Virus record (IMG/VR): IMGVR_UViG_3300031565_000202
Location: 1-33,258 of that record
Reading direction: 5' to 3' (one strand)
DNA: 33,258 nt
DNA from: a virus
Numbering within the stretch: position 1 is the stretch's first letter; each line of letters begins with the position of its first letter. The translations under genes were made by a program, and so were the position numbers. Below the pieces are notes generated by a model. It was given only the letters and a program-made list of their open reading frames with translations, ran no database searches and had not been told where the DNA came from. Shown in pieces: positions 2,431 to 32,809 of the stretch.

Positions 2431-3069
2431 TTAACGTAAAAATGTTATTTCCTTAGTGCTGATCCCTCCACATTCAGAATCAATTTTCTGCTTATACTGC
2501 CACTTCCCGAATCTGATAAACAGGAACTTCCGGGGACGTTCTTTGAAGTACACATCTGTAGTTTTGTTGCTGTAAAAAAACAAGGTCCTATTAACGCTTA
2601 GCGAGTCATTTAACAAGAAAGCATCTGCCTGCCATTTAAAACATGATCCTGAATCTTTAATTTTCCAAAAATTCTGCCTGGAAATATAAACAGGAACCGG
2701 TACTGGTATCGTATCATGATCGATTAAAGTATTAGTTATTATTTTCTCAATCTGTTTTGGCTTGATCCGAAGGGCCTTAGCGAGACTATCTCTTTCCGCT
2801 AATACTTTCCCTGTTAATTCCCTTTCCTTCAATACTAGCGTTGTCTTTTGCCTATTCTCACCCATTAACTGCATATTGTTAAGCTGCACCCGATCAATCT
2901 CTTCCTTTTGTGCCTTGATCTTCTTTGCCTGAATCTTGACAGTAACTATTGCAGAAGCCAGAAAAAGGACCGCAATACCGATCCCGATTAATTTAATGTT
3001 TTTCATAACAGGTTTTATTAAAGGTTTTAAAAAATTGTAGATTTTATACAACGTCGAGACTTTTACCAT
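2431..3069 (-). CDS. spanin-like membrane-anchored protein, 212 aa
   Basis: The protein has one N-terminal membrane helix at about 25-46 (KLIGIGIAVLFLASAIVTV) preceded by Lys residues, then a charged coiled-coil region at about 47-100 and a globular C-terminal part with Trp/Phe-rich strands. This topology (cytoplasmic N-terminus, periplasmic coiled coil) and its place after endolysin and holin candidates suggest an inner-membrane spanin acting in the last lysis step. Its ATG overlaps the stop of the GIY-YIG gene by seven bases; an internal ATG at residue 22 would also keep the membrane helix. I cannot see a separate outer-membrane spanin. The role is inferred from topology and context only. 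Confidence 0.6.
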   Translation of the reverse strand: MVKVSTLYKIYNFLKPLIKPVMKNIKLIGIGIAVLFLASAIVTVKIQAKKIKAQKEEIDRVQLNNMQLMGENRQKTTLVLKERELTGKVLAERDSLAKALRIKPKQIEKIITNTLIDHDTIPVPVPVYISRQNFWKIKDSGSCFKWQADAFLLNDSLSVNRTLFFYSNKTTDVYFKERPRKFLFIRFGKWQYKQKIDSECGGISTKEITFLR

Positions 3070-3575
3070 ACCGCTAATTTATATTTCCAAATAAAATTAC
3101 CTGCTGTTTTACGATTTTCAGTAAGGCAACTATTAATATTCCCTTTATTTATTGATAGGGTTTTACCAGCATTTACAGCACAATCCCAATCTTTGATAAA
3201 ACACATATTTTTACTAAATTGTATAATTGGTTTTTTGTTAGATTCACTCAATTTCTTTCTGGTTTCCTCTGAAACATTTCTGCCTAAAGAACTTCCGGCA
3301 ATTTTACAGATATTAAAATAAGGTTTCAATTTATTGATATAATATTGTTCCCTGGCTGTTAAAAATTCAGGAAAACATAATTCAATAATTATAAAAATTA
3401 AATCTGATTGTCCATATTTATTGTAATGCCTTTGAAGTTTAATAGAATGATGTTTATTTAATTTAAGATCACTTAAATGTCTTATCCATCGTTGTTTCAT
3501 ATTTACGGCACTCCCAGTATAGACCCTCTCTGGTTTTAACTTACTTTCAATCTTATAAATACCTGTAACTTTCAT
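3063..3575 (-). CDS. GIY-YIG homing endonuclease with NUMOD domains
   Basis: The catalytic GIY-YIG module is at the N-terminus: GIYKI at 5-9, VYTGSA at 18-23, the conserved Arg near 29, Glu76 in LTAREQYYI and Asn88 in PYFNIC. It is followed by a NUMOD3-type motif (GRNVSEETRKKLSESNK, 98-114) and a NUMOD1-like DNA-binding module (KPIIQFSKN ... NINSCLTENRKTAGNFIWKY, 115-167). This order is typical of free-standing or intron-encoded homing endonucleases that nick DNA to copy themselves. It sits inside the lysis cassette, between a small membrane protein and the spanin-like gene, and overlaps the latter. I see no intron, so it is most likely a free-standing selfish gene. Confidence 0.9.
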   Translation of the reverse strand: MKVTGIYKIESKLKPERVYTGSAVNMKQRWIRHLSDLKLNKHHSIKLQRHYNKYGQSDLIFIIIELCFPEFLTAREQYYINKLKPYFNICKIAGSSLGRNVSEETRKKLSESNKKPIIQFSKNMCFIKDWDCAVNAGKTLSINKGNINSCLTENRKTAGNFIWKYKLAVW

Positions 3576-6540: not shown

Positions 6541-7080
6541 TCAGTCACCTATGACCTTAAAAATTCCACGATTATCATTACAAGTCAATCCGCCACAACC
6601 GAAATCAGCCCATAGAGGGTAAAGTTTATAATTACGGTTAAGAAATAAAAGCACTTCGCACATAATAGCATCGGCCGTCAATCGTGCCTCTGTCTCTAAT
6701 CTTTGAATAGTCTTATCAGATGCCGGAGTCGAGAGGTCACTGTCTTTGACCGTTATTCCTGCTGCTGTGTAGTTATAAGAAGTGCGGTTTGAGAATCGGG
6801 CAAAACTATAGTACAAAATTCCTGCTTTAAGTCCCTGAAAAAGATATGTTTTAGTCAAATAGACATAAGATCCGCCGTTCAAAAGTGTAGTATTATCCGC
6901 TGTAAGTGTTCCGGCAACAAACTGAGTAACTAACTCGTTCAAAAGAGCATCGCCGATCTGAACTTTTATATCCAACATCTGAGCTTCTGAAACGAATTGA
7001 GGCCAGACAGCAGAATTTTTTATGGATTCTGCGATATATTTATACGCCTGTGCGTCGGCTAAAGTTACTAGTGCTGTCAT
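6541..7080 (-). CDS. head-tail connector-like protein (DUF6712-like)
   Basis: The 179-residue protein is mostly helical. It opens with TALVTLADAQAYKYIAESIK, has a central QMLDIKVQIGDALLNELV helix and a long C-terminal LETEARLTADAIMCEVLLFLNRN helix. This resembles Bacteroidota head-completion proteins that sit below the portal; the DUF6712 assignment is from memory of the pattern. It directly follows the portal gene with an ATGA overlap (7077-7080), the usual place of the first connector. It ends with a Cys-containing FGCGGLTCND segment of unknown purpose. Confidence 0.65.
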   Translation of the reverse strand: MTALVTLADAQAYKYIAESIKNSAVWPQFVSEAQMLDIKVQIGDALLNELVTQFVAGTLTADNTTLLNGGSYVYLTKTYLFQGLKAGILYYSFARFSNRTSYNYTAAGITVKDSDLSTPASDKTIQRLETEARLTADAIMCEVLLFLNRNYKLYPLWADFGCGGLTCNDNRGIFKVIGD

Positions 7081-8228
7081 ATTATTGAAGGATTTGAAGG
7101 TATATAAGATTTTGGCTTAATGCTGAAATCCGTAAACTGAACCGGATAAAACTTGAACAGATCCATGAAGGCTCTTTCGAGATCATCTCTTTCATCAGAA
7201 GTAACAGAATTGATATAATCATAAGCATTAGTAAGCAGGTCACTCCCAAAACCATTTCCAACGTCGATGCCTCTTAGCACCGGGGGTAGTTTAAACATCC
7301 GTCCGATATTTTCCTGTACTGTTTTTTCAGTTACCTCATATTGACGATCATAATTCTTTGCATCGAAAGGTATAAATTCCGGTAGTTCCTCATCAGAATC
7401 AATATCAACAACCCAGATTTTAGAGGTGTTCATATCGCCTTGCATCCTTAATATTTCAGCACGACTATTTTCCTGTTCTTGATTATAGCGATCTAAAGCA
7501 TCAACGGCCCTGTCTTTGGTTAATACAGGTTTGATCCCTTTACGAACCAAAATACCGGCAGGAAGAAAGTTAAATTTGGCATTGCGGTGCTTAACAGTAG
7601 AAACACTTTCCTCTGTCAACATATCAGTTATGATAGGATCAAAAGGACAGATCGGATATTCAAAATCTCCATCATCAGTGTAGTAAAATATCTGACCAAA
7701 ATAAAATCCGGGTCCACCTGCCTCAGCGATTTGCTGTGCTGCAGCTTCCGGATCATATTTAGGAATAAATTTGACATCGTCCATCCTGAAAGGGAGTCCT
7801 GCCAAATTTGTCCAGTCAGGATGTACGGCTATACGTCCGGTGTATTTTTTCTTACCGTCAATTTCTATTCTGCAATGTTCAAATGGTATATTGTAATAAG
7901 CATAAGGAATGGCGTTAAAATCATACTTAACCAGACAGGCAAATCCATTAAAAGATTTAAGATCTTTTGCGAATTTACTCAAAAGTGAACTGACTCTTTC
8001 GTTATTAGCATTAATTATAAGATCATTAAATATCTCATCTGTGAATCCTGATCCGCGAACGAACTTAACATAAGTATCAAAGCAAGTCTTTCCAGTGCCG
8101 GAACTTGCAATAATTTCTAATATCTTTTGCGGATAGTCATTACCATCACCATATCCCTTAATCCTTTTGCTTGTAAGATATTGATTCCGCTCGACCCTCG
8201 GCAATGTCTTTGTAGCGGATACTCTCAT
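7077..8228 (-). CDS. portal protein
   Basis: The 383-residue protein has portal-like features: an N-terminal clip or wing region with GDGNDYPQKILEIIASSGTG, a FNGFACLVKYDFNAIPYAY segment, the region SVSTVKHRNAKFNFLPAGIL, and the C-terminal stem signature QENIGRMFKLPPVLRGIDVG followed by acidic helices (SDERDDLERAFMDLFKF). The portal forms the dodecameric DNA gate at one capsid vertex. It is somewhat short for the family (usually 400-500). It overlaps its neighbours on both sides. Unusually, it is downstream of the capsid gene and about 20 kb from the terminase. The call rests on motif layout and on the connector next door. Confidence 0.75.
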   Translation of the reverse strand: MRVSATKTLPRVERNQYLTSKRIKGYGDGNDYPQKILEIIASSGTGKTCFDTYVKFVRGSGFTDEIFNDLIINANNERVSSLLSKFAKDLKSFNGFACLVKYDFNAIPYAYYNIPFEHCRIEIDGKKKYTGRIAVHPDWTNLAGLPFRMDDVKFIPKYDPEAAAQQIAEAGGPGFYFGQIFYYTDDGDFEYPICPFDPIITDMLTEESVSTVKHRNAKFNFLPAGILVRKGIKPVLTKDRAVDALDRYNQEQENSRAEILRMQGDMNTSKIWVVDIDSDEELPEFIPFDAKNYDRQYEVTEKTVQENIGRMFKLPPVLRGIDVGNGFGSDLLTNAYDYINSVTSDERDDLERAFMDLFKFYPVQFTDFSIKPKSYIPSNPSII

Positions 8229-9313: not shown

Positions 9314-10405
9314 TTAAATTCCTACCTGAACAAGTCTGTCGTCAATGATTTTTGCATCAAAAGCATCTCTCGCCTCGATTCGATTGATGCGACTTCTTTG
9401 ATCATAAAATGAATTGATATTATCAAAGAGTCCGTTGCATTCCATCCCGACATTCAAATTAGAAACGGTTGTATAAACTACCCTGTGAGGATTATTCCAT
9501 GCCACGCCGTTATTTTCATATGCACGAATCCACTGATCCCATAAAGGAATCGAGATAATTTTTATCCCATCCCAGTTGGCAAATTCCAGACCGTTAAGCA
9601 TAAGGGTGTAATCCTGAAACACGGTTCCAAGTGCCTGTAATTGTCTGCGAATCCTATCCATTACCGACTTAGTAACAAGTATTACCCTGTCCGACTGTGC
9701 TGCCAGCTCAGGGATAGCCGTGTCAATTACAAGATTTAAAGCCGTATAGGTCAAAAGCGGTGTTGCTACTGTTCCTTGTAAGGCATAGGTAAGCTGTGTA
9801 TTGCCCGGCATAGCTGTCAATTTTGTTGGATCGGCAGCATAAATAACTGCTAGTTGCTGAAAGAATCCGTTGAAAATATTGAAAAATCCAACGTCATAAC
9901 CGTCTGTTATAACACCTCCTGCGTTAACATTAGCGGCTGCCGTGTTACCAAACCACACATGTCTAAGGATCATCTTTTCAATGTCCTTGACAAGAATATC
10001 AAGAATAAAAGCAAATACCTCTGTATTGGTTAGATCAAAGGCTTCTATCCCGCATTTGGTAGCTAATTTCATGAGTGTATCATCCAATTCATTCTTGCAC
10101 ATATCAATGATTATCTCAATGACTTTTGGTTCCCATGTTTTCTCAACGGCTGTATCTTCATAGCATTGAGCAACCGGGTTACAGTTCTGACCTGCTTTTC
10201 CAACAAGCCCGAACGTGCCGGGTATGATTCCTATTCTACGGTCATTCTTGATCCCTGTGACAAGCGTATGAAACGCTGACAATGCGGGTGCTTCGAGAAC
10301 GGCTGTTACGACGAGTTCATTCAGAGACCGAAGTTCATCGGCGGTGAAGTGAAGTGCGTCCAAATTGATGGTGCTTGCGCACGCTGGTGATGCTCCGATT
10401 GGCAT
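9314..10405 (-). CDS. major capsid protein
   Basis: The 363-residue protein directly follows a ClpP-type prohead protease with a scaffold-like tail, the usual place for the shell protein. It has the expected length, an extended N-terminal arm (to about 40), a helix-rich region with conserved Cys and acidic residues, and a C-terminal domain with NGLEFANWDGIKIISIPLWD at about 275-295, like the loop-and-strand region of HK97-fold capsids. The C-terminus (NSFYDQRSRINRIEARDAFD ... LVQVGI) is typical of phage shell ends. The call comes from position, size and general layout; sequence alone does not prove it. Confidence 0.75.
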   Translation of the reverse strand: MPIGASPACASTINLDALHFTADELRSLNELVVTAVLEAPALSAFHTLVTGIKNDRRIGIIPGTFGLVGKAGQNCNPVAQCYEDTAVEKTWEPKVIEIIIDMCKNELDDTLMKLATKCGIEAFDLTNTEVFAFILDILVKDIEKMILRHVWFGNTAAANVNAGGVITDGYDVGFFNIFNGFFQQLAVIYAADPTKLTAMPGNTQLTYALQGTVATPLLTYTALNLVIDTAIPELAAQSDRVILVTKSVMDRIRRQLQALGTVFQDYTLMLNGLEFANWDGIKIISIPLWDQWIRAYENNGVAWNNPHRVVYTTVSNLNVGMECNGLFDNINSFYDQRSRINRIEARDAFDAKIIDDRLVQVGI

Positions 10406-10407
10406 AA

Positions 10408-11550
10408 TTATTTAGTTTTAGATTCGTACATTTTTCTGATTTCTGCGACTCTGGCAAGATTGATATTTCCAACCTTGTCAGTATTAGCGAAACTCCTGTT
10501 TCTGCTGTCTGGCTTCCATGAATTTTTAAGATTCGTGAGTTCAGTTACAATTCCCTGAGCCAGATCAACTGCCTCTTTGGCTTTCGTCTGTGCCAGTTCT
10601 GCCTCTGTCTTAGCTGCTTCGGCTTCGGATTTAGCTACTTCACTATCAGCAATCTTAGCTTCCAGCTCCACGATCTTCTCGTTTGCCAGTTCAAGCTCAG
10701 TTTTATCTGCTACCGCTGCTTCTTTAATTGAGCTGATCACACCACCTTCGATGGTGATTGTCTTTCCGCTCTCCATTACATAAGTGCCATCCGGTGTGGC
10801 TTTATCTCCTACAGCCGGGACTCCTGTCTCCTTTTCAAGAGTAAACTCATTACCATCCTTATCTTTCAAAGTCTGGTTGGAAATCCTTGAAAGGTTTTTC
10901 ATTTTGGCTATCGCTCCATCGAGTGACGAGCCAAGTTTTTCAAAAAACGTTTTTTCGTCCATTTTAAATTTATTATTTGGTTTCAAATATGCAAATGCCA
11001 TTATTGGCTCGACTATTTTTGTTGCAAATCCCAGAGAAAGCATATCTTCTGCTGACAATTTGGTATCTTCTTTCATGTATTCAGCTAATGTTGCTTCATC
11101 TGAACCGGTTTTCTGTACATAAAAATCAAGTATCTTTGCTTCTTCTTGTCGTAATGCTTCTGCGATAGCTTCCAGATCACCTGCCTCATATTTATCTGCA
11201 AGTGTATATTCCGGAATAAAAGGATTATGAATTAATCCATCGGCATTTTTCATGAATTCTCTTTCTGTACCTGCGAGAAATACGATAGTAGCAATCGAAT
11301 AAACTTTCCCTTCACCTATTGTTTTGATTCTTTTACCTGAATTGACCAACAGATCATGAATTGTCCAGCCTTCCTGAACGTCACCGCCACGAGAATTGAT
11401 TTTAACCGTGATCCCTGTTGCGTCTTTGTTCTCATCAAGAAAATCAGAAACGACCTTTGCAGAGATAGTGTCATCAGAGACATCAAACATCTCAAGCATC
11501 TTATCAGGCTCACCAATGTCTCCGTATATCTTTAGAACTGCTTCCATCAT
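10408..11550 (-). CDS. ClpP-type head maturation protease with scaffold-like C-terminus
   Basis: The N-terminal 200 residues are a ClpP-fold serine protease. Numbered from the ATG at 11550, the substrate strand INSRGGDVQEG is at 51-61, the nucleophile Ser85 lies in VYSIAT and His108 in LIHNPF; an Asp in KEDTKLSAEDML is a likely third member. Residues about 285-340 are an Ala/Glu/Lys-rich coiled coil (ELANEKIVELEAKIADSEV and on), as in protease-scaffold fusions. The enzyme cuts scaffold and capsid arms during head maturation. An upstream ATG at 11562 is possible, but 11550 overlaps the stop of the small ORF before it by ATGA. Confidence 0.88.
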   Translation of the reverse strand: MMEAVLKIYGDIGEPDKMLEMFDVSDDTISAKVVSDFLDENKDATGITVKINSRGGDVQEGWTIHDLLVNSGKRIKTIGEGKVYSIATIVFLAGTEREFMKNADGLIHNPFIPEYTLADKYEAGDLEAIAEALRQEEAKILDFYVQKTGSDEATLAEYMKEDTKLSAEDMLSLGFATKIVEPIMAFAYLKPNNKFKMDEKTFFEKLGSSLDGAIAKMKNLSRISNQTLKDKDGNEFTLEKETGVPAVGDKATPDGTYVMESGKTITIEGGVISSIKEAAVADKTELELANEKIVELEAKIADSEVAKSEAEAAKTEAELAQTKAKEAVDLAQGIVTELTNLKNSWKPDSRNRSFANTDKVGNINLARVAEIRKMYESKTK

Positions 11551-11678
11551 ATCAATCCACATTCAAATAAATAATAGTATGGATAATCCGATGTTTCTTG
11601 CGGATAGCTATCATCGTGAATCCAATGTAAAACCGGGTCCATATATAAGCTCCAAGGGGTGCATAAAGTTTCGCTCAT
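11547..11678 (-). CDS. small aromatic-rich ORF at the head of the head operon, 43 aa
   Basis: This frame, starting MSETLCTPWSLYMDPVLHWI, is rich in Tyr, Trp, Asp and Pro (SDYPYYYLFECGLI end). Its TGA overlaps the ATG at 11550 of the protease gene, giving the same ATGA coupling as elsewhere. The ATG lies in the second arm of an inverted repeat (CATACT/AGTATG, 11676-11697), so its translation may be sensitive to leader folding. No family is recognised. It may be a leader peptide that couples ribosomes into the protease gene, or a small virion protein. Confidence 0.5.
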   Translation of the reverse strand: MSETLCTPWSLYMDPVLHWIHDDSYPQETSDYPYYYLFECGLI

Positions 11679-11750: not shown

Positions 11751-11779
11751 AATAAAAAGCCCCTCCGGGATGGAGAGGC
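11751..11779 (-). terminator. intrinsic terminator closing the sugar cassette
   Basis: On the minus strand GCCTCTCC pairs with GGAGGGGC (one U-G) around a 5-base loop (11759-11779), followed by TTTTTATTT. It lies about 57 bases after the last gene of the cassette and separates it from the head operon. Confidence 0.88.
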
Positions 11780-11835: not shown

Positions 11836-12351
11836 CTATATATCTTTCAATATTCCTTCTCCATAAATTATCAATTTGCATCCTTTTTTCTCAAGTGCAT
11901 CCTTTAAATTCATGAAATGAATCTTAATTTTGTCACATAAATCTGTTTTCAAATGGGGATGATTAACCATATCACAACCAAAAAGATGAATCTCTGTTGC
12001 ATCGTAATGTCTAAATGCGATCTGGCAAGCCACAAACGGTGAGCAAAATGATTTATAAAACTCTGGAATATCTAAGTTTATTTCAGCATTAGGATAGTGA
12101 GGCAGGAAATTAATCTTAACAAATCCTTCTTTAAAATCCCAGTTGACTATCTGACTGTAGAAAGCCCCTGGAGTACATTCATTTATTATCCGGAAACGGT
12201 CATCATTAAAGGCAGTTCTTTTATTAAGACAAACAACAACATCAGTTTTATGAAATCGCCAAATATCATTAACACCGATTGAAAGATCATATTCATTTTT
12301 GTATAAACTAAGTGAAGGGCCAATCCCAAGTACAGCTATTATCTTTCCCAT
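11836..12351 (-). CDS. DUF115/MptE-like protein of the sugar cassette
   Basis: The 171-residue protein opens with a Rossmann-like strand and loop VLGIGPSLSLYK (7-18) followed by SIGVNDIWRF. This G-x-G-P-S-L ... G-V-N pattern is that of DUF115-type proteins, including those linked to sugar transfer onto flagellin and phage-borne relatives. A second conserved part is ATEIHLFGCDMVNH at about 117-130. It is shorter than cellular members and has no membrane segment. It is the last gene of the cassette, overlapping the previous one by 13 bases and followed by a terminator. A role in transferring or handling a nucleotide sugar is likely but not shown. Confidence 0.6.
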   Translation of the reverse strand: MGKIIAVLGIGPSLSLYKNEYDLSIGVNDIWRFHKTDVVVCLNKRTAFNDDRFRIINECTPGAFYSQIVNWDFKEGFVKINFLPHYPNAEINLDIPEFYKSFCSPFVACQIAFRHYDATEIHLFGCDMVNHPHLKTDLCDKIKIHFMNLKDALEKKGCKLIIYGEGILKDI

Positions 12352-13034
12352 CCCGGATCTATTTCAGGTAATCTTTTTGATTTTCTTATATCCCTTGTCC
12401 CCCTTGTATCGTGCTGTATATACTCTCTCGGTTCACCAGTCCAGGTCCATCCCGAACTTGATGAATGACCCAACCCCGGAAATTCAATAAGTATTTTATC
12501 TGATAAACCTTGTCGTTTTATCTCATTCATAGTTTTAAAACAGGGAGCCCCATGATGAACGAAAGGAGGAAATTTAAAATATTGCTCAACAGATATTAAC
12601 ATAAAATAAGGATGCAAATATTTAACAGGTGTCTGATTAGAATGATGTTTATGCGCTCCATATTCAAAACCATCATCACCAGTTAATTCAATATATCCAA
12701 CTCCGTAAGTATCTTCTTTCATTAAATTTAACATCTGCTCAACAGGGCTCTTCAGAAAAACAATATCACTATCAAATATTAAAGCATATTTAGTTTTTAC
12801 CATCCCAAGAGCTGCATCCATGCCACGTCCATGACCTATATTGTAATTAAATATTCCAATGATTGTTTTTTCCGATGCTATAGAACAAACATACTTCCGG
12901 CACGGATCAAACTTATCTGAGCCGTCGATTATTATTAGTGACATATCAGGATGAAACTTTCGGAATGAGCTATAAGCTCTTTCCATTAAGTCCTTACTGT
13001 TACTACATACCGATATTGCAGTAATATCGCTCAT
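12339..13034 (-). CDS. GT2-like glycosyltransferase
   Basis: From the ATG at 13034 the protein (231 aa) starts MSDITAISVCSNSKDLMERA and has a GT-A layout: LIIIDGSD at 33-40, NYNIGHGRGMDAALG at 63-77 and the metal/nucleotide-sugar motif ALIFDSDIVF with Asp88-x-Asp90. A C-terminal EFPGLGHSSSSGW may close the acceptor site. There is no membrane helix, so the enzyme is soluble. Starts at 13046 (ATG) or 13052 (GTG) are possible; all overlap the upstream gene. The sugar donor and acceptor cannot be told. Confidence 0.75.
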   Translation of the reverse strand: MSDITAISVCSNSKDLMERAYSSFRKFHPDMSLIIIDGSDKFDPCRKYVCSIASEKTIIGIFNYNIGHGRGMDAALGMVKTKYALIFDSDIVFLKSPVEQMLNLMKEDTYGVGYIELTGDDGFEYGAHKHHSNQTPVKYLHPYFMLISVEQYFKFPPFVHHGAPCFKTMNEIKRQGLSDKILIEFPGLGHSSSSGWTWTGEPREYIQHDTRGTRDIRKSKRLPEIDPGWER

Positions 13035-13725
13035 AAATTTTTGCATCTTCACCGATTAATGATTTTAAGTAATTCAAATTTGTATCTATATTTTTTGACC
13101 ACCAGGAATGTCCTGCTCCAATACCGGGACGGCCCGGAAGACCTTTTATCCCTATTGCTAAATTTCCTTCCTGAAATAAATTTTTATTCTCTGCATTTTC
13201 CCAAATCCTACAATCTATGAATCTATGAGAATAACTATTTTTAAGAAGTGGTATAACCTTGCATGTAAATGCTGTTTGAAATAAACTTGCATGAATAAGA
13301 TTAGGATTTGTGACTGCTGTACGGTAATAGACGTTGTAATAAATTGTATTTGTCTCCCCGGAAATATCATAACCATTTAATCTCAACATCATTCTTTCGA
13401 GATATATCGGTTTATAATAATCATCATCCTCAATTATAAATATACCCTCAATTTCCTCTTCTTTATAATTAGCAAGTAATGTGTTTATTCCTACCGAGAT
13501 ATTCCGGGCCTGTGTGTTTTGTCCTTCCTGCCATGAAGGAAGAGGATATTTTTTTATTATAGTCCAGTTCTCCCGAAAGTCATCCGGTATTTCAACAGTC
13601 CGGGGAATACAATCATCAATTATTATCCAGACAACTTTTCCGGGATAGGTTTGTTGTTTCATTAATTTTTCACAGATATTTATTTGTATCTGGCGCCCGC
13701 CGGTTGGTGTAATTAATGCTATCAT
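13003..13725 (-). CDS. GT-A fold glycosyltransferase-like protein
   Basis: Starting at the ATG at 13725, which overlaps the stop of the GT11-like gene by ATGA (a longer frame would need TTG), the 240-residue protein opens MIALITPTGGRQIQINICEK. It has VVWIIIDDC at 31-39, QGQ-like EGQNTQARNIS and the acidic motif IIEDDDYYKP at 98-107, which fits a DxD metal site. The C-terminal GIKGLPGRPGIGAGHSWW is a Gly-rich loop probably near the active site. It lacks membrane segments. It is most likely a GT2-type enzyme, somewhat diverged; donor and acceptor unknown. Confidence 0.7.
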   Translation of the reverse strand: MIALITPTGGRQIQINICEKLMKQQTYPGKVVWIIIDDCIPRTVEIPDDFRENWTIIKKYPLPSWQEGQNTQARNISVGINTLLANYKEEEIEGIFIIEDDDYYKPIYLERMMLRLNGYDISGETNTIYYNVYYRTAVTNPNLIHASLFQTAFTCKVIPLLKNSYSHRFIDCRIWENAENKNLFQEGNLAIGIKGLPGRPGIGAGHSWWSKNIDTNLNYLKSLIGEDAKIYERYYCNIGM

Positions 13726-14447
13726 ATTTGTATCCAATTTTTACAATTAATATCATCAGTCTGTACTGGTAATCCCGGGAACCAATCACCCGGGAATATT
13801 GCCTTTGCCTTTGATAACCATGCACCCCACCAACCGAAGGTACTATTTGAACCAATTATATATTTAGCTTTTGTCATTAAATAAAAATCATCTATGGGAG
13901 TATTACTAATATATTCAAAATCCTCTTTTATCGTATCTTTAGCCTTTTGTGGATCATCAGTAATTACAATCACCCTGCGATCTGGAAATTGCTTTAAGGC
14001 TTTCATATAGTAATCTTTAGTCATATTTGTAAATCCCATGTCGAGATACTGCTGTGCGTAATTACGACAATGAATTAAAATACAATCCTTATAAGGAGAC
14101 TTGCCCCTGTATTTAAGAGTGAAATAATACCGGATCAAATCCTCACAATGCTCGAAGTATTTTTCCGATTGCATGTAACCCCAGATTGAGGAGTTATCAG
14201 GAATATCAAAACCAAGAAAATTGCCCTCCGGTATTTCTACATTTGTATAATTACCGGATGTAATTTTTGGCAAAGGATGGACAAAATACTCCTGATTATT
14301 CCATTTAGGGAATCCATAGGAATATCCATTTTTTACAGCTATTCCTATCGTGGAGGCAATAAAGAAAAGAATATTACCGAAGGTATTATCTCCTCTTATA
14401 TCTGCCTTTGGTCTGTTTGAAAACCATTCATTTCTAAAAGTTATCAT
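13722..14447 (-). CDS. GT11-like (alpha-1,2-fucosyltransferase type) glycosyltransferase
   Basis: The 241-residue protein ends with the GT11 signature SNSTFGWWGAWLS at 200-212 (family form SNSSFSWWAAYL), preceded by ITDDPQKAK (162-170). The usual nucleotide-binding HxRRGDY motif is replaced by IHCRNYAQQY at 125-134: His and the first Arg are kept, the following Arg-Gly-Asp is not. The family transfers L-fucose or related sugars from GDP-sugar, but the changed motif makes the donor uncertain. It is soluble and shorter than most members (about 290). It overlaps both neighbours by four bases. Confidence 0.75.
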   Translation of the reverse strand: MITFRNEWFSNRPKADIRGDNTFGNILFFIASTIGIAVKNGYSYGFPKWNNQEYFVHPLPKITSGNYTNVEIPEGNFLGFDIPDNSSIWGYMQSEKYFEHCEDLIRYYFTLKYRGKSPYKDCILIHCRNYAQQYLDMGFTNMTKDYYMKALKQFPDRRVIVITDDPQKAKDTIKEDFEYISNTPIDDFYLMTKAKYIIGSNSTFGWWGAWLSKAKAIFPGDWFPGLPVQTDDINCKNWIQI

Positions 14448-15049
14448 TGTTTTATATATAAAGCGTCACCCCAGGTTATGCCATCCCATTGTGTTTTTAC
14501 TCTTTTGAAATTATTTAAAAATAAATCTATCTCTTCCACTCTTGCACAATTTTTATAAACTTCATCCCGATTTACTTCTGTATAAATTATATCAATAGAT
14601 TTTAAGGTCTCAATAGCTCCCTTGAATACTTCCAATTCATATCCTTGTACATCTATATTGATCATATTATATATAGTGCGATTAAAAGGAATATTATCTA
14701 ACTTATCCATTTTCACAATCTCTTTAGTATCGAATTTTATACCCGGATAACTTGATAGGTGCGTCCCTGGTTCAAGCAAAGAACAACTTTGCCCGGTGTT
14801 TACTGTTTCGATATACATTTCCCTTACTCCTCTTTCGTTGCCTAATGCTATATTATAAGTTCTAGTATTTTCAGGAAGTGATTCAATTAGAATTTTATAA
14901 TTAGCTTGTACGGGTTCAAAGAATATCATATTTTTAATTCCACATTCAGAATAAATTCTATACTCTTCTCCATAGTGTGCCCCAATATGGATAACACCTT
15001 TGATCTTTAAATCAAAATCTTCAATAATATTTTTAAGTGGCATTAACAT
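14444..15049 (-). CDS. FkbM family SAM-dependent methyltransferase
   Basis: The 201-residue protein has the class I methyltransferase motif I as GVIHIGAHYGEEYRIY (18-33), acidic motif II as MIFFEPVQANY (41-51), a central TYNIALGNERG, and MINIDVQGYELEVFKGA followed by IIYTEV near 127-158. These are FkbM-family marks; members O-methylate sugars or small molecules. In this cassette a methylated sugar is the likely product. A start at 15043 (TAATG overlap with the previous stop) is as likely as 15049. No membrane or export signal is present. Confidence 0.85.
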   Translation of the reverse strand: MLMPLKNIIEDFDLKIKGVIHIGAHYGEEYRIYSECGIKNMIFFEPVQANYKILIESLPENTRTYNIALGNERGVREMYIETVNTGQSCSLLEPGTHLSSYPGIKFDTKEIVKMDKLDNIPFNRTIYNMINIDVQGYELEVFKGAIETLKSIDIIYTEVNRDEVYKNCARVEEIDLFLNNFKRVKTQWDGITWGDALYIKQ

Positions 15050-15579
15050 CTTGCTACAAGTATATCATTTAAATAAGTAATCTTTAAATCGTAATCATAA
15101 CCATCCTCAAATGTAAATATATAATCAGGGTTAATCTCTTTAATTTTCTCCATCAGATTATTAATATCAAATCCATGTATATTTTTATCCCACCCCCGGA
15201 GATCATCTATTAAAATAGTATGATTCTTTACATTATGGTTCTTAATCGCTTCTAACTCCTGAAGGAGAGGTGAATTTAAACTACCTAATGCCGTTTCACC
15301 TCCCGAATAATGACCATCCAGCCAAAACGTAACAGACTCTTTTATCATTGTTAGTAGAGTGTCAAGCATCTCACCTGAGTCACCAAGTATAAGATGAATA
15401 TTATTATTTTCCTTGAACTTGTCCACGCAATTCTTGTAAAGATTCTTTGATAATTCTATTGAATAGATTGTATTAAATCCTTCATCAAGAGCTTGCTGAA
15501 TACCATCACCCTTATAAGAGCCTGTTTCTATAAAAATATGATTAGGATATTTCCTAAAAAGTCCTCTAGGGGCTGACAT
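15043..15579 (-). CDS. SAM-fold protein, probable methyltransferase
   Basis: The 178-residue protein shows HIFIETGSYKGDGIQQA at 14-30, a variant of SAM-binding motif I, then TIYSIELSKNLYKNC (37-51), HLILGDSGEML (62-72) and FWLDGHYSGGETALG (85-99). The Rossmann-like order fits a class I methyltransferase, and the G-H-Y-S-G-G-E-T loop is distinctive. It pairs with the FkbM gene downstream, overlapping it by one to seven bases. I recall similar proteins next to phage and surface-sugar glycosyltransferases but cannot name a family with certainty. Confidence 0.6.
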   Translation of the reverse strand: MSAPRGLFRKYPNHIFIETGSYKGDGIQQALDEGFNTIYSIELSKNLYKNCVDKFKENNNIHLILGDSGEMLDTLLTMIKESVTFWLDGHYSGGETALGSLNSPLLQELEAIKNHNVKNHTILIDDLRGWDKNIHGFDINNLMEKIKEINPDYIFTFEDGYDYDLKITYLNDILVARC

Positions 15580-16150
15580 ATTGATTAAAATTATTAATGA
15601 TTTGTTCGTAGTTCACTTCTCTTTGCTCTATATCTGAAAATCCAGTGCGTTGAGTTGCCACAAGGGGAGTTATAATATAGCAATTAAATTTGAGCTGCAC
15701 GTCATAGGCATAAAAAACATCTATCGTTTTTCGTAGCTCCGTTTCATAGTTATCAAAATTATTTACAATATAATTCACCATGCGTTGAGAATTATAGATA
15801 ATAGCATGAGCGCAGAAGGCCTCCGTTATTCTGCAAAGATTTTCAGAGTATCTCTCTACAGATCTCATCAGTGTAGCACCCAGCCACAGCGCATCCCATG
15901 TTAAAGGAAGTTGTGATATTGCTTTTTCAACAATATCCCACGACTGAAGCAATTCACAATCATCTTCAAATATTGCAAAAGGATATTCTTTCTGCCTGCT
16001 CATAATAAGTAATTGAGAAGCCGTGCAACCAATCCATCCGGGATCGGTTTTAATAGCATTGAATCGCTCCACTTCGAACGGAAATTTATTCTTTTTAAAT
16101 TCCTCCATCCGATCTGTTCTTTCAAGAAGATTTACAACATACGCTTTCAT
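15566..16150 (-). CDS. GT25-like glycosyltransferase
   Basis: The 194-residue protein starts MKAYVVNLLERTDRMEEFKK, the GT25 opening (VINLxxRxDR), followed by FEVERFNAI (25-33), GCTASQLLIMSRQKEYPFAI (41-60) and the acidic FEDDCEL (61-67) that fits the metal site. GT25 enzymes add galactose or similar sugars to LPS or proteins. The protein is about 50 residues shorter than bacterial LPS members and has no membrane segment. It lies between the radical SAM gene (six-base gap) and the SAM-fold gene (14-base overlap). Confidence 0.8.
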   Translation of the reverse strand: MKAYVVNLLERTDRMEEFKKNKFPFEVERFNAIKTDPGWIGCTASQLLIMSRQKEYPFAIFEDDCELLQSWDIVEKAISQLPLTWDALWLGATLMRSVERYSENLCRITEAFCAHAIIYNSQRMVNYIVNNFDNYETELRKTIDVFYAYDVQLKFNCYIITPLVATQRTGFSDIEQREVNYEQIINNFNQYVSP

Positions 16151-16156
16151 GGGCTT

Positions 16157-17251
16157 TTATATCATTTTTGACCAATTAGTTAATGTTTCTATCGATTGTT
16201 CATAAGTATAAAATGGTACTCCTGATTCTAAATATGTATTATCATCAAATCCATATTCTTTTGCTTTACGGTGTATCTCCGTTCCCGGAAGAATCCATGC
16301 GATATTCGGACCATATTGAGTTATCCTGCTTCTTAATCTATTTTGTCTTGTCTCTTCAATATTTTTATAAGTATCTCCAGGAAGCCCAACAAGAAATAAA
16401 CTCATAGTATTAATTCCAATTGTTTCTGCTATTTCGATTCCTTTTAACATTTTTTCAACTGTAGTTTTTTTATTCATTCTATCTAAAGCATCCTGACTTA
16501 ATGATTCGATTCCTAAATGAATTTTCCTGCATCCTGCCCTGTAAAGTTCTTTACAAAGTTCCTCATCCAATGATTCAGCCCTTCCAACGCATTCCCAGAT
16601 TAAACTACCATCTAGATGCGAACATATTTCGAACACTCTTTTTTTGTTTGCAGTAAAATTATCATCATAAAAAATCCAGGTATTATAACCTTCTGACTTT
16701 CTTTTTTCTATCTCTAAAATTACATTATCTACTGATCGTATCTTGTAACTATGTCCCCAGAAGTTGGAAGAGCCGCAAAAATTACAAGAGAACGGACATC
16801 CACGAGAAGATATAATTGAAATACCATGTGGACTATTAAAATTAAATCCCGAATAATCAGGTAATGGAACTTCATTTATACCATAAAAATATTTACGCTC
16901 ACAATTAACTATCTTTGAGTCGTTCCCTTGAATAATATCTATTATAGCATTTTCACCCTCACCAATTACGACTTGATCATAACCTATTGAAATCATTTGA
17001 TCAGGAAGAGCCGAAGGATGATGACCACCACAAATCAATTTTCCTTTGAATCTTTCTCTTATTTGTTTTGCGTATTTAACCGAGAAGCTATGGAAACTAA
17101 CCCCGACTAAATCGTAATCATCTGAAATAACATCACTGATATTTCTTGCATCAACATCTACTTTCCAATGTTTTAAAGCAGCCTGTAAATAACCGATTGC
17201 CGGAGGTGGTAACTGATCTTTTTCCCAAGGATCTATTAAAAGTACTTTCAT
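16157..17251 (-). CDS. B12-binding domain radical SAM protein
   Basis: From the ATG at 17251, which shares one base with the previous stop (TGATG; the longer frame would need TTG), the protein has 364 residues. Residues 1-115 resemble a cobalamin-binding domain: PPPAIGYLQAAL, LVGVSFHSF and GGHHPSALPD, then IGEGE. The radical SAM core follows with Cys152-x3-Cys156-x2-Cys159 in RGCPFSCNFCGSS, then a KIHLGIESLSQDALDRM strand near 245-261. Such enzymes do difficult methylations or rearrangements, including on sugars and peptides. Here the neighbours suggest sugar or sugar-protein modification; the substrate is unknown. Confidence 0.88.
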   Translation of the reverse strand: MKVLLIDPWEKDQLPPPAIGYLQAALKHWKVDVDARNISDVISDDYDLVGVSFHSFSVKYAKQIRERFKGKLICGGHHPSALPDQMISIGYDQVVIGEGENAIIDIIQGNDSKIVNCERKYFYGINEVPLPDYSGFNFNSPHGISIISSRGCPFSCNFCGSSNFWGHSYKIRSVDNVILEIEKRKSEGYNTWIFYDDNFTANKKRVFEICSHLDGSLIWECVGRAESLDEELCKELYRAGCRKIHLGIESLSQDALDRMNKKTTVEKMLKGIEIAETIGINTMSLFLVGLPGDTYKNIEETRQNRLRSRITQYGPNIAWILPGTEIHRKAKEYGFDDNTYLESGVPFYTYEQSIETLTNWSKMI

Positions 17252-17871
17252 CAGAAATCTTTTGGGTGAAAGTGACAAACATAATATTCCGGTGTTGGTA
17301 TTTTCATTGAAGGATGAGGTAAAAGATATTTTTCAATCATTCGCCAATCATGAGCGTAACCATCCCCCCAAACAACATTCAAGTCTTTACGATGTGCTAT
17401 CATACTCGTTCCGATATAGTATAACTCAGGACTTACTTCTCTTTCTTTAAAGATCAGGTCCTCCCCCTCCTTGCCCTGTATTAAATAATCATTATAGTAA
17501 ACCCAGTCATCTTTGAAGTTATCATTTATGATCTTGAGATGATCTATTCCTATATAATCATCATGATCAAGATAAGTTATTATTTCACCCTGTGCCATCT
17601 CAATACCTGTCTGCCTGACCCTTCCACCAAAGATAGATTGCTTTTCAATATAGGCATATTTAATCCGTGATATATGAGAGAATTCAATATCATATAATTG
17701 TTCAGTAATCTTGCAACCATCGGAGATTATAATAAGTTCAGTATCATTAAATGACTGCCTGATAAATGAATCGACTGCACGAAGAAATTTTATCACAGGA
17801 TCTTTAGCACTTTTTATTTCATTGATCTCGTAAGCTTGAAGAAATGCAGGCATTATAACAGAAATTCTCAT
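17251..17871 (-). CDS. GT2 family glycosyltransferase
   Basis: The 206-residue protein starts MRISVIMPAFLQAYEI, a standard GT2 opening, with ELIIISDGC at 45-53 (nucleotide binding), GGRVRQTGIEMAQGEIITYL (82-101) and the DxD-type motif DHDDYIG at 102-108. A C-terminal WGDGYAHDWRMIEKYL holds the probable catalytic Asp region. It is a compact, soluble, single-domain enzyme. It overlaps the 79-residue gene upstream by ATGA and the radical SAM gene downstream by one base. Donor and acceptor are unknown. Confidence 0.85.
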   Translation of the reverse strand: MRISVIMPAFLQAYEINEIKSAKDPVIKFLRAVDSFIRQSFNDTELIIISDGCKITEQLYDIEFSHISRIKYAYIEKQSIFGGRVRQTGIEMAQGEIITYLDHDDYIGIDHLKIINDNFKDDWVYYNDYLIQGKEGEDLIFKEREVSPELYYIGTSMIAHRKDLNVVWGDGYAHDWRMIEKYLLPHPSMKIPTPEYYVCHFHPKDF

Positions 17872-18107
17872 ATTTCGTTCTCCATTGTTTTTTTAATTCT
17901 ATAAACACTCCATTCACCTATTTTGAAATCTTCACTAACATAAAATACTGATTTGCTCACATTATGACCTTGTTTTTTATAGTAATCAAATCTGGAATAA
18001 ATCTCAAAATGTCTTATAACAGATGACGGAAGAACACCTAATTTTATTTGTTCTTTTATTCCATCGGGTTTTAGAATGTTTTTATTTATGTATTCGAACC
18101 TGTTCAT
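17868..18107 (-). CDS. small possible helix-turn-helix protein, 79 aa
   Basis: The protein is helical and basic. GVLPSSVIRHFEIYSRFDYY (24-43) followed by VSKSVFYVSEDFKIGEWSVY (50-69) and RIKKTME suggest a compact winged or helix-turn-helix fold with the last helix as reader. It lies directly between the tape-measure gene (ATGA overlap) and the first glycosyltransferase (ATGA overlap). It could regulate the cassette or be a tail-assembly protein. No family is recognised. Confidence 0.6.
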   Translation of the reverse strand: MNRFEYINKNILKPDGIKEQIKLGVLPSSVIRHFEIYSRFDYYKKQGHNVSKSVFYVSEDFKIGEWSVYRIKKTMENEI

Positions 18108-20560
18108 ATCACTGCCCGGATTTCAACTTTTGTCTTTGCCTTTGCCACATTTTCATACGCCTCAACAGTTACGATCGGAGTCGGTAATTTACTAATAGCA
18201 TTTGCAATGTCTGCTGCTGTTAATAAGTTTTGCGGTGCTACGTTTAGTTGTTGTTGTGTCAGTTGTGGTTGTGTGAAAAAAGAGGAAGCAACCGGAGAAG
18301 CAAATGTTCTTTGTGCTGCCGGAGTTGATGTTATGGATGTTGGTGCTGATATTGACGGAGTTCCTTTTCCGGATGTGTCAACTTTTAAAATATTCTTTAC
18401 AGTAGCTAATCCCGATAAAATTATGGTTACCATTGCTGCTATACGTGCAAACGTTGAAGGCATTGTGGGATCACGTAAAGCCAGAGATGCACCAACCCAA
18501 GTATTAATTGTAGCCTGTGCTGCTGCAAAAAACTTACCTGCTGTTGTTTCCTCTCCTAAAACAGAAGACAAAGCACCAAGCGCATCTGCTGCTCTATCCC
18601 TATTCGTTATCCATATTTCAGTAGCAAGATTATCCGCATTTATTCCATCTCTTATTATAGCTTCATTTCCTTTTTGAACATCCTCATTAAATTTGAGTTC
18701 ATCAAGCTTTATTTGTTTTCTGGTTTTTGATCCAAGCAGATCATTATTTATTAACTTCTGTAAATTTTCTATTTCTTTTTCCATGCCTTTTTTAGAAGCT
18801 TCCATTGCTTTTACAGCATCTTCTTTAGCTTTTACAGCAGCTATCGTAGCTTTTTCAGCAGCTTCCACTTCTGCCTGTTGTCGTTGTAGTTTTTCAGTTG
18901 CTATCCGCTTTTCCTCTGCTTCTGCTTTTAATTTTATTTTTAATAAATCATCTTCCTTCTTTTTTTCAATTTCCATCACAGAGGACATACTATCTGAATA
19001 TTCCTGAGTTTGTTTCTTACTTCTGAATGCAGCATTGCCTAAAGCATTCCAGAAACCTATACCTTGATCACCATAAAATCTAAATTTATCTCCAAAAGTC
19101 TCGATAGTTCGTACATCAAACATCCTGTCTACAGCTGGCTTTCCTGTCGTATTTATGTAAGTCACTATTGCTGTTAATCCACTCAAAAAACTTTTTAATG
19201 CCCCGGTAGATTTATTAAGTCTTAATATAAATCCTTCCCATGCACTTTTAAGAATAATTACTGATCCCTGTACATTATCTAACATAACCCCTGCCATGTC
19301 TTTTGCTGCCCCTTCTATATCCCGCAAACGATTAGCAGATTCTTCCATTATATCATTATTGTCTGCTAATATAAGCCCTGCCACTGCTCCTCTTTTTCCA
19401 AATAATGCAAGTGCCGTAGACGCCTTACTTTGTGAACCCTGTATTTTATTCATAGCTTGATCCCATGTCAATCCTGACTTTGCTAATTCCAAATATATAT
19501 TACGTAATGAAGTTCCTGCTGTACTTGCATCCAATCCGGCATCAGCTAAAAATCCCAACTTGTTAGTTGCATCTTCTATATCATCACCAACAGCAGCAGC
19601 AACAGGGCCAGCTTTTGCCATAGCAATTTCAAACTTAGTAATATCAAGCGCTGAAGTGCTGAAACTCATTGCCATAACATCTACTACCCGCCCCATTTCA
19701 GAAGCATCAAGATTAAATTGTCGCATGGTAGCACCAGCAACTTTTGAGGCCGTACTTATATCAGTACCAACGGCAGCAGCTAAGTCTAATGTTGCTGCTG
19801 TAATTGCAAGTATTTCATTTGTTGTAAATCCCAATTTAGCATATTCTTTTTGAAGCCCTGCCACTTCCGTTGCTGTAAATTTTGTCGACCCTCCAAGAGA
19901 AATTGCATTTGATCGCAACCTATCAAATTCATCTGATGTTGCTCTTGTAATTGCCTTTACCTGGGACATGGCATATTCAAAATTAAATGTAGTTTTAAGT
20001 CCATTTTTTATTACATTAAAGAAAGCTCTTGCTGCCATCGCCACAGAAGCATAAATACCAAGAGTTGACATTAGATTTTTTGCCATTCCCCCGATTGATT
20101 GAGAATATCTCCCGACATTTGTACGTCCATCTTTTTGAGCCTGATCATATGCTATTACTGCACCTTTTGCTTGTGATAATGCCTTAACCTGATTAATATA
20201 TGCTTGAGACAAAACCCTGACTCCTTTTTCATTTATTGTGTAAGTATTTGCCAAAGCACCTAATCGCTTTTGTTCTAGTGTCACAATAGCATTAAGCTGT
20301 TTTCTGGAATTGATATTTGAGTTATTAGCTTGTGTCTGAAGGTCAACAGCTTTTTTAGCATCCCTATATTCCTTTTGTGCATTGCGAAGCGCTGCACTTG
20401 TCTTCTCTTTTTCCGCAGTTGTAGCCTTATCACTAGCCTGCATCTTCATATTTTCAAGAGTCAGTCTCTCAACTTCTTCCCGTGCCTTCGCTGCATCCTT
20501 AGCGTACTTATCCAGATTACTCTCTACATTTACCAGATATTTTTTTTCTTCTGTTGCCAT
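18104..20560 (-). CDS. tail tape measure protein (TP901 type)
   Basis: The 818-residue protein has an N-terminal coiled coil (about 10-140), then the TP901-family core at about 190-430: FNFEYAMSQVKAITRAT, SLGGSTKFTATEVAGLQKEY, TSALDITKFEIAMAKAGPVA, GLDASTAGTSLRNIYLELAK. A Lys/Glu-rich coiled coil (about 535-640) and a hydrophobic segment near 690-745 (ARIAAMVTIILSGLATVKNI) follow. The protein sets tail length; at roughly 1.5 angstrom per residue, tail length would be about 120 nm, i.e. a long-tailed phage. It shares one base with the previous stop and overlaps the 79-residue gene by ATGA. Confidence 0.93.
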   Translation of the reverse strand: MATEEKKYLVNVESNLDKYAKDAAKAREEVERLTLENMKMQASDKATTAEKEKTSAALRNAQKEYRDAKKAVDLQTQANNSNINSRKQLNAIVTLEQKRLGALANTYTINEKGVRVLSQAYINQVKALSQAKGAVIAYDQAQKDGRTNVGRYSQSIGGMAKNLMSTLGIYASVAMAARAFFNVIKNGLKTTFNFEYAMSQVKAITRATSDEFDRLRSNAISLGGSTKFTATEVAGLQKEYAKLGFTTNEILAITAATLDLAAAVGTDISTASKVAGATMRQFNLDASEMGRVVDVMAMSFSTSALDITKFEIAMAKAGPVAAAVGDDIEDATNKLGFLADAGLDASTAGTSLRNIYLELAKSGLTWDQAMNKIQGSQSKASTALALFGKRGAVAGLILADNNDIMEESANRLRDIEGAAKDMAGVMLDNVQGSVIILKSAWEGFILRLNKSTGALKSFLSGLTAIVTYINTTGKPAVDRMFDVRTIETFGDKFRFYGDQGIGFWNALGNAAFRSKKQTQEYSDSMSSVMEIEKKKEDDLLKIKLKAEAEEKRIATEKLQRQQAEVEAAEKATIAAVKAKEDAVKAMEASKKGMEKEIENLQKLINNDLLGSKTRKQIKLDELKFNEDVQKGNEAIIRDGINADNLATEIWITNRDRAADALGALSSVLGEETTAGKFFAAAQATINTWVGASLALRDPTMPSTFARIAAMVTIILSGLATVKNILKVDTSGKGTPSISAPTSITSTPAAQRTFASPVASSFFTQPQLTQQQLNVAPQNLLTAADIANAISKLPTPIVTVEAYENVAKAKTKVEIRAVI

Positions 20561-31317: not shown

Positions 31318-31641
31318 TTATTTAGTTAGATTATTTTTGATGTCATGATATGCTAAATAACACTCTTCTTGTTTTTGATCATCAATTTGGAAAGTTGGAT
31401 GCAATGCAATGACCGATTCCATAAATCTTCCAATCATCTCATCTGTTATTTCCTTCACTTCCTGCGATTCAAGAGCTGCGAGTTCGGATTCAAGTCTTTC
31501 AAGTATTGATTCAAGTTGTTTTAATCCAATTTCCCACATATCTACCCTGATATCTCCATGAACAAATTTTTGCCAATGTTTTATTATTTTATTCAGAATC
31601 TTTTCTTTTTCTTTCAGTTTTGCAATTATCTCGTCTTTCAT
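31318..31641 (-). CDS. coiled-coil early protein, copy A, 107 aa
   Basis: The first 60 residues (MKDEIIAKLKEKEKILNKII and on, to SELAALESQEV) are almost identical to those of the 146-residue gene at 32369-32809, because a 199-bp segment is duplicated (31456-31654 and 32624-32822). The rest (KEITDEMIGRFMESVIALHP and on) differs. The shared part is a charged coiled coil, suited to dimerisation. Function unknown. Confidence 0.7.
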   Translation of the reverse strand: MKDEIIAKLKEKEKILNKIIKHWQKFVHGDIRVDMWEIGLKQLESILERLESELAALESQEVKEITDEMIGRFMESVIALHPTFQIDDQKQEECYLAYHDIKNNLTK

Positions 31642-32368: not shown

Positions 32369-32809
32369 TTAATTAGATTTTTTAATTGTGATTTTGATAT
32401 TCTCAAGGCTTATTCCGTTACCATAACCATTCATAGCTCCAATGATAGTTGGGATATTGTCTTTTATACTTAATCCTGCCATGCAATGACCATCAAAATC
32501 AATGTCATATTCCTTTTCGTCTGTTACCTTTGAGGACTGTTGGGAGTATTCTGCAAGCTCCTTAATTCTCATTAATCTTGCTGTTTCAAATCCTTCATCA
32601 AATCCTTTTTTATATTCTCCCTCCACTTCCTGCGATTCAAGTGCGGAGAGTTCGGATTCAAGTCTTTCAAGTATTGATTCAAGTTGTTTTAATCCAATTT
32701 CCCACATATCTACCCTGATATCTCCATGAACAAATTTTTGCCAATGTTTTATTATTTTATTCAGAATCTTTTCTTTTTCTTTCAGTTTTGCAATTATCTC
32801 GTCTTTCAT
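32369..32809 (-). CDS. coiled-coil early protein, copy B, 146 aa
   Basis: The first 60 residues are near-identical to the 107-residue gene. After LESQEVEGEYKKGFDEGFET the sequence diverges into a charged helix (ARLMRIKELAEYSQQSSKVT) and a C-terminal beta region (DEKEYDIDFDGHCMAGLSIK, GNGISLENIKITIKKSN). Copy A and B look like one gene duplicated and then given different ends. Function unknown. Confidence 0.75.
   Translation of the reverse strand: MKDEIIAKLKEKEKILNKIIKHWQKFVHGDIRVDMWEIGLKQLESILERLESELSALESQEVEGEYKKGFDEGFETARLMRIKELAEYSQQSSKVTDEKEYDIDFDGHCMAGLSIKDNIPTIIGAMNGYGNGISLENIKITIKKSN

Follow-up and report, generated by a model that had tools for sequence, protein, structure and literature searches.

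A probable virion-glycosylation locus with constant ends and an exchangeable middle in tailed phages of Bacteroidota type

Introduction

The window analysed here is the whole of the IMG/VR virus record IMGVR_UViG_3300031565_000202 (33.3 kb; 33,258 nucleotides), with its genes on the minus strand. Between the tape measure gene and the head maturation protease gene it carries a cassette of ten adjacent or overlapping open reading frames (ORFs), c1 to c10 (11836-18107, minus strand), which is probably a modular virion-glycosylation locus of a tailed phage of Bacteroidota type, made up of conserved core transferases and exchangeable decorating enzymes. What is observed, and what this reading is built on, is the gene content, the slot in the operon, the folds, the conserved ends and exchanged middle, the recurrence in unrelated virion operons, and purifying selection. 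The order of transcription is terminase small and large subunits, tail genes, tape measure, c1 to c10, a hairpin, protease, a gene similar to that of the major capsid protein (MCP), and portal. An initial annotation, made from the sequence alone, had placed a glycan-modification cassette in just this interval, and the ten minus-strand ORFs are there. The genes are, all on the minus strand and in order of transcription:

c1, 17868..18107, 79-aa helix-turn-helix (HTH)-like protein, not an enzyme; constant left edge of the slot (phrog_17790, E 4.9e-5)
c2, 17251..17871, GT2 glycosyltransferase, variable part (PF00535, E 2.5e-10)
c3, 16157..17251, B12-binding-type radical SAM (S-adenosylmethionine) enzyme, variable part (PF04055, E 2.6e-26; PF02310, E 1.3e-8; CPFSCNFC motif)
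c4, 15566..16150, GT25-like glycosyltransferase, variable part (PF01755, E 0.0013, under the cut-off; phrog_24091, E 1.3e-11)
c5, 15043..15579, class-I methyltransferase-like protein, variable part (by reading of the sequence, a glycine-rich SAM-fold motif, FIETGSYKGDG)
c6, 14444..15049, FkbM-type methyltransferase, variable part (PF05050, E 1e-15; TIGR01444, E 1.2e-15, over the cut-off)
c7, 13722..14447, GT11-type glycosyltransferase, variable part (PF01531, E 1.1e-10; phrog_2644, E 1.1e-32)
c8, 13003..13725, glycosyltransferase with a GT-A fold, from a family that has no name; belongs to the conserved core and bounds the exchangeable part on the right
c9, 12339..13052, GT2 glycosyltransferase, conserved core (PF00535, E 2.8e-9); the true start may be 13046 or 13034
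c10, 11836..12351, predicted glycosyltransferase of GT42/MAF-like type; belongs to the conserved core and closes the cassette

The two GT2 enzymes, the GT11, the FkbM methyltransferase and the B12-type radical SAM enzyme of the initial annotation were all matched in Pfam. Its GT25-like c4 has a weak Pfam match and a PHROG match; its second SAM-fold protein, c5, shows the motif and gave no significant match in a Pfam search. The inclusion of c1 among the glycan genes has to be given up.

Constant ends and an exchanged middle

Relatives were collected by a search with the MCP, which gave 48, and by a c8 profile search, from which 80 of 214 confirmed places were retained. Phages with the window's head genes are called lineage 1, and the counts for it are taken over the 31 loci in which over 3 kb of upstream sequence precedes the protease. 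Both c8 and c10 are found in 31 of 31 loci and c9 in 29 (L015 and L083 are without it). About 20 of these loci were retrieved through the MCP alone, and the c8 count is therefore not an effect of searching with c8. An apparent loss of c10 or c9 from L013, L028, L051 and L040 arose from the filtering of overlaps, and these loci do have the ORFs. At the other end c1 follows immediately after the tape measure, with homologues 39-54% identical at this place in the relatives whose sequence covers it.

The 2-7 genes from c1 to c8 vary from phage to phage. Among the genes exchanged in the relatives are GT2 types, a DXD-type transferase, methyltransferases including a C-methyltransferase (PF08484), an NAD-dependent epimerase, RmlD-like enzymes and radical SAM enzymes. 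The statement that sugar-nucleotide enzymes are missing is thus true of the window, and such enzymes are found in the cassettes of relatives. It had also been proposed to look in related phages for the same ten genes in the same position. Both the slot and its last three genes recur there; the full set does not, because the middle is exchanged, and only c1, c8, c9 and c10 are constant.

The window's own middle has counterparts elsewhere. The block c3-c4-c5-(c6)-c7 recurs in two other types of phage with 61-83% identity, upstream of a portal gene in L001 and upstream of a terminase-like gene in L003; the c7 homologues there are 83% and 78% identical, respectively. Homologues of c4 (56-65%) occur in L001-L004, L009 and L012, those of c5 (52-61%) invariably adjoin c4, and those of c2 (50-68%) are found in L009, L010, L012, L029 and L037.

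The radical SAM enzyme c3, for which the start ATG 17251 is favoured over TTG 17278, has a B12-binding and a radical SAM domain and is a candidate B12-dependent radical SAM methyltransferase. Its closest solved sequence is AprD4 (E 8.5e-21), a sugar-acting radical SAM enzyme named as a diol-dehydratase-type enzyme, and as this relative acts on a sugar, deoxygenation is as possible as methylation. The NCBIfam models (PhpK 1.6e-34, AprD4 3.1e-22) all score far under their cut-offs.

The core transferases

In the initial annotation c8 was a diverged GT-A protein. It has no match in Pfam, PHROG, NCBIfam or PADLOC, yet its AlphaFold model (pLDDT 89) has the GT-A fold, with 250 PDB matches at E <= 0.001, the top ones being glycosyltransferases including SpsA and TarP. 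Invariant residues are DD37-38 and EDDD99-102, the latter being the acidic metal-binding motif of GT-A.

For c10, which had been called DUF115-like, there is no family match, and a PDB sequence-profile search was also empty of useful matches. The model (pLDDT 93.6) is closest to the sialyltransferase CstII (1ro7, E 1.1e-3, probability 1.00, TMq 0.50), with the flagellin glycosyltransferase MAF (5mu5) at rank 9. G9, G11, S13, N28, D29, H122, G125, D127 and H145 are invariant. A homology of c10 to the MptE-like protein of the second lineage described below is not claimed, as the profile comparison aligned 25 columns with 6% probability; an MptE-like profile run against PDB sequences gave nothing useful.

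The ratio of nonsynonymous to synonymous substitution (dN/dS, NG86) in close pairs is 0.11 for c8, 0.07 for c9 and 0.11 for c10, the values for protease and MCP being 0.11 and 0.07. Pairwise identities are correlated with those of the MCP (r 0.48 for c8, 0.67 for c9 and 0.66 for c10; 0.58 for the protease and 0.53 for the portal). Low dN/dS together with a divergence that tracks the MCP indicates that the core c8-c10 is kept and inherited along with the head genes.

A second lineage with the same enzymes

Lineage 2 consists of complete-looking contigs of 65-71 kb, the structural genes of which have no BLAST match to those of the window; no capsid similarity to lineage 1 was detectable. The order is head morphogenesis, protease-like, head decoration, MCP, one or two small genes, an MptE-like protein (PF01973), variable enzymes, c8, a sulfotransferase (PF13469), head-tail connectors, major tail protein and tape measure. 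Families were clustered by 75% two-way coverage, because under looser clustering fusion proteins had drawn unrelated methyltransferases and MptE-like proteins together. With this strict clustering the two lineages have no structural family in common and many enzyme families, up to 77% identical. A block of GT2-like protein, GT2, radical SAM enzyme and epimerase is common to L067, L089 and L119 and to L093 and L111, and a six-gene block is common to L037 and L120. Since whole enzyme blocks are common and structural families are not, the enzyme sets appear to move between unrelated virion operons with differing docking places, each of which adjoins c8.

Some further observations concern lineage 2 and the shared four-gene block. 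The PF13469 sulfotransferase-family gene follows c8 in nearly every locus (32 found; L107, L110 and L120 are examples), which suggests that the glycan of this lineage may bear a sulfated group. The radical SAM gene of the four-gene block is a 70-aa fragment in L110 (8256-8468), L108 and L109 and is gone in L113, L115, L116 and L085, so the GT2-like/GT2/epimerase block persists without it. Very large cassette proteins of 943-1207 aa near the capsid gene (L082:5050-8673, L107:4912-7842, L076:6662-9493) seem to be fusions of cassette enzymes.

Further phage types, and relatives with an empty slot

Among about 85,000 species genomes of GTDB, c8 is found at 13 loci only, and at least five of these are in the structural operons of prophages that belong to further types. 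A prophage of Lysobacter antibioticus HS124 has c8 together with an HK97-type portal; in a Thiobacillus prophage the order is HK97-type portal, MCP, c8, head-tail adaptor; in a Parvularcula prophage c8 stands beside a fused protease-MCP lying upstream of it; and in a prophage of Roseovarius sp. MMSF_3281 a head-tail adaptor is directly upstream of c8. A Firmicutes contig has a terminase, a c10 homologue, a c8 homologue, further genes and a tape measure. The case that would have spoken against virion decoration, homologues lying mainly in host capsule loci, does not apply to the core: bacterial genomes seldom contain c8, and where they do it is mostly in prophage structural operons.

Neither c8 (three diverse queries) nor c10 has a match among 50,697 cultured-phage records. 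Cultured relatives of both lineages exist. Bacteroides phage BS-TP3 has the same gene order as the window, with MCP 29%, portal 30% and terminase 38% identical, and its gp61, annotated as 'Mor domain', is a 27% identical c1 homologue at the same place after a tape-measure-like gene; the slot before its protease holds other, non-transferase genes and the cassette is absent. Brevundimonas phage MaInes (MCP 36% identical to lineage 2) has one small gene from MCP to connector and likewise no cassette. As these relatives do without it at either slot, the cassette is an addition to working virion operons and not an indispensable part of the head.

Probable and less probable targets of the enzymes

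The initial annotation favoured decoration of virion proteins, and this is supported by the conservation of the slot, by the mainly prophage-linked occurrence of c8, and by the searches reported in this section; that the target is in the virion we infer. The leading alternative, which we regard as unlikely, is that the enzymes alter lipopolysaccharide, capsule or other glycans of the host to block superinfection or change receptors. Surface polysaccharide loci typically contain GT2, GT11 and GT25 enzymes, epimerases and sulfotransferases, and there is a precedent from gut Bacteroidota phages ('Gratiaviridae'), in which a glycosyltransferase located between portal and MCP was read as host-surface modification (PMC8008677). 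On the other hand, no cassette protein has a membrane segment, as had been claimed (no 19-residue window above Kyte-Doolittle 1.40), and a position in a late operon leaves little time for surface remodelling; the rarity of the c8 family in bacterial genomes also argues against it. The claimed lack of a flippase was borne out in 17 records of 33-71 kb, which are possibly incomplete: no match was found to a Wzx-type flippase (PF01943; 13 of 14 controls positive) or to GtrA (PF04138; 7 of 14 controls positive).

In a second alternative the transferases glycosylate modified bases of the phage DNA, thereby evading restriction. We find this improbable. Thymidylate-synthase-fold enzymes are the source of hydroxymethyl bases, and no match to this fold (PF00303) was found in the same 17 possibly incomplete records, with 9 of 14 controls positive; a search for TET/JBP was also empty and carries no information, its controls being empty as well. 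Viruses are known to encode glycosyltransferases for the hypermodification of DNA (cited in PMC12619734), but many differing sugar enzymes and a sulfotransferase beside capsid genes fit poorly with such a function. Taken together, the lack of GtrA, Wzx and membrane proteins makes a host-surface role less likely, and the lack of the thymidylate-synthase fold makes DNA glycosylation less likely still.

Least probable of all is that the Cys/Tyr-rich ORF at 11547-11678 is a small peptide substrate of the radical SAM enzyme and the transferases, in the manner of ribosomally synthesized and post-translationally modified peptides (RiPPs): its pattern C...YY.LF.C is conserved at the same spot in many relatives, overlapping the protease start, but the ORF is missing in L055, L067, L089 and L119, all of which retain c8 and c10 and have radical SAM genes, and no RiPP-specific NCBIfam model was over its cut-off. 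A comparison with known anti-phage defence families gave, apart from marginal matches, only a candidate model, PDC-M51A, which the radical SAM protein of the cassette matched (E 5e-9).

Some points weigh against virion glycosylation. The cassette phages of lineages 1 and 2 are all metagenomic contigs, and two apparently chromosomal c8 homologues (L123 and L131) have no visible phage genes around them. A late-gene location would also suit a late host-surface or superinfection role. In most phage types c8 is within a few genes of capsid or connector genes, which favours a head protein as target; the tail genes of lineage 1 are equally near, and the head target is thus a guess. That the acceptor is a virion protein, and likewise which protein, the order of the enzymes, the glycan and the benefit, is inferred.

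A model for the cassette

The virion-glycosylation model hypothesizes that soluble enzymes are made late in infection together with the proteins of the particle. The constant part, c8, c9 and c10, would probably either initiate the glycan of a virion protein or cap it, and the exchangeable enzymes (c2 GT2, c3 radical SAM, c4 GT25-like, c5/c6 methyltransferases and c7 GT11) would add further sugars, taken from host sugar nucleotides, and alter them chemically. The outcome would be a methylated or otherwise unusual outer glycan differing from phage to phage. The likely benefit would be an altered particle surface (adhesion, masking, stability), and selection for novelty would drive the exchange. 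The recurrence of the constant-end/exchangeable-middle design in unrelated phage groups makes a variable glycan on the virus particle itself probable.

A bolder version, which we put forward tentatively and as somewhat less likely to be right than wrong, is a mobile 'glycan cartridge': c8-type transferases, nearly confined to phages, would mark a docking point in virion operons across several bacterial phyla, and whole sets of sugar enzymes would be exchanged between unrelated phages to give serotype-like variable glycan coats.

Virion glycosylation has been described for few phages and is regarded as unusual. If the model is true, protein-linked glycans are common on uncultured Bacteroidota phages, are present on some prophages of Pseudomonadota and Firmicutes, and vary by exchange of enzyme sets. 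The particle surface could then vary independently of the capsid sequence, which would affect adhesion, recognition and the stability of the particle. The cassettes would also be a source of soluble enzymes for unusual sugars, among them a radical SAM enzyme related to the sugar-acting AprD4. The c8 family is a marker for finding such phages, and the Lysobacter and Roseovarius prophages offer a cultured route to testing.

Comparison with known systems

Phage virion glycosylation itself is known; the c8 core family, the architecture and the breadth of occurrence appear new, and no published description of the family or of a virion-operon layout with constant ends and exchangeable middle was found in the open-licence literature. 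Glycans on capsid and tail-tube proteins of mycobacteriophages are established (Freeman 2023, as cited in PMC11256854 and PMC12619734). In Che8, Rita and relatives, as in the cassette, the glycosyltransferases are encoded by the phage. In Maravista (cluster F1) the glycosyltransferases are near the 3' end of the genome (PMC11256854) and not inside the structural operon. Compared with the mycobacteriophage systems the cassette has many more enzyme types and its characteristic layout, and c8 and c10 are without matches among the cultured-phage records.

The chlorovirus PBCV-1 decorates its MCP with its own transferases, one of them with a methyltransferase domain, and a five-sugar core is conserved across all chloroviruses (PMC7826918, PMC4691112). 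The shared logic is a constant core and a variable outer part; PBCV-1 is, however, a eukaryotic giant virus with N-linked capsid glycans, and homology to the cassette is not claimed. The likeness of c10 to CstII (GT42) and to MAF, which glycosylates flagellin, is one of predicted fold with a moderate TM-score, and c10 is much shorter than MAF. GtrABC O-antigen conversion also uses phage-borne glycosyltransferases, and c2 weakly matches a GtrB-like family; unlike GtrABC, the cassette has neither GtrA nor membrane proteins and sits in a virion operon.

Flanking genes and minor observations

The features around the cassette are, all on the minus strand:

18104-20560, tape measure (phrog_1533, E 1.5e-53)
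11759-11779, intrinsic-terminator-like hairpin after c10 (8 bp, 6 G-C, T tail; minimum free energy z -2.3)
10408-11562, head maturation protease (phrog_94, E 8.9e-36)
9314-10405, MCP-like gene (phrog_38780)
7077-8228, portal (phrog_11226)

The hairpin agrees with the strong terminator noted initially in the window. Similar hairpins are found in only 9 of 48 sequences, the window included (0.1 expected on shuffling), and the general design of the cassette therefore does not include one.

From terminator to protease sits the Cys/Tyr-rich ORF mentioned above (11547-11678, minus strand), which codes for an acidic protein of 43 aa (MSETLC...YYYLFECGLI) and overlaps the start of the protease gene by way of ATGA. 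Most lineage-1 relatives have an ORF of about 43-59 aa with C...YY.LF.C at the equivalent place; L055, L067, L085, L089 and L119 are without one. The only hint of a host comes from L122, a contig of a lineage-1 phage found in the bin of a Bacteroidales genome.

A GIY-YIG-like endonuclease-type ORF is located at 3063-3575 (minus strand) of the window, with relatives at varying spots near or inside the cassettes of L058, L060, L119 and L094-L096; these are possibly homing endonucleases aiding gene movement. The ORFs at 31318-31641 and 32369-32809 (minus strand) have a near-identical N-terminal part (MKDEIIAKLKEKEKILNKIIKHWQKFVHGDIRVDMWEIGLKQLESILERLES...); the duplication is recent and lies on the upstream side of the terminase genes.

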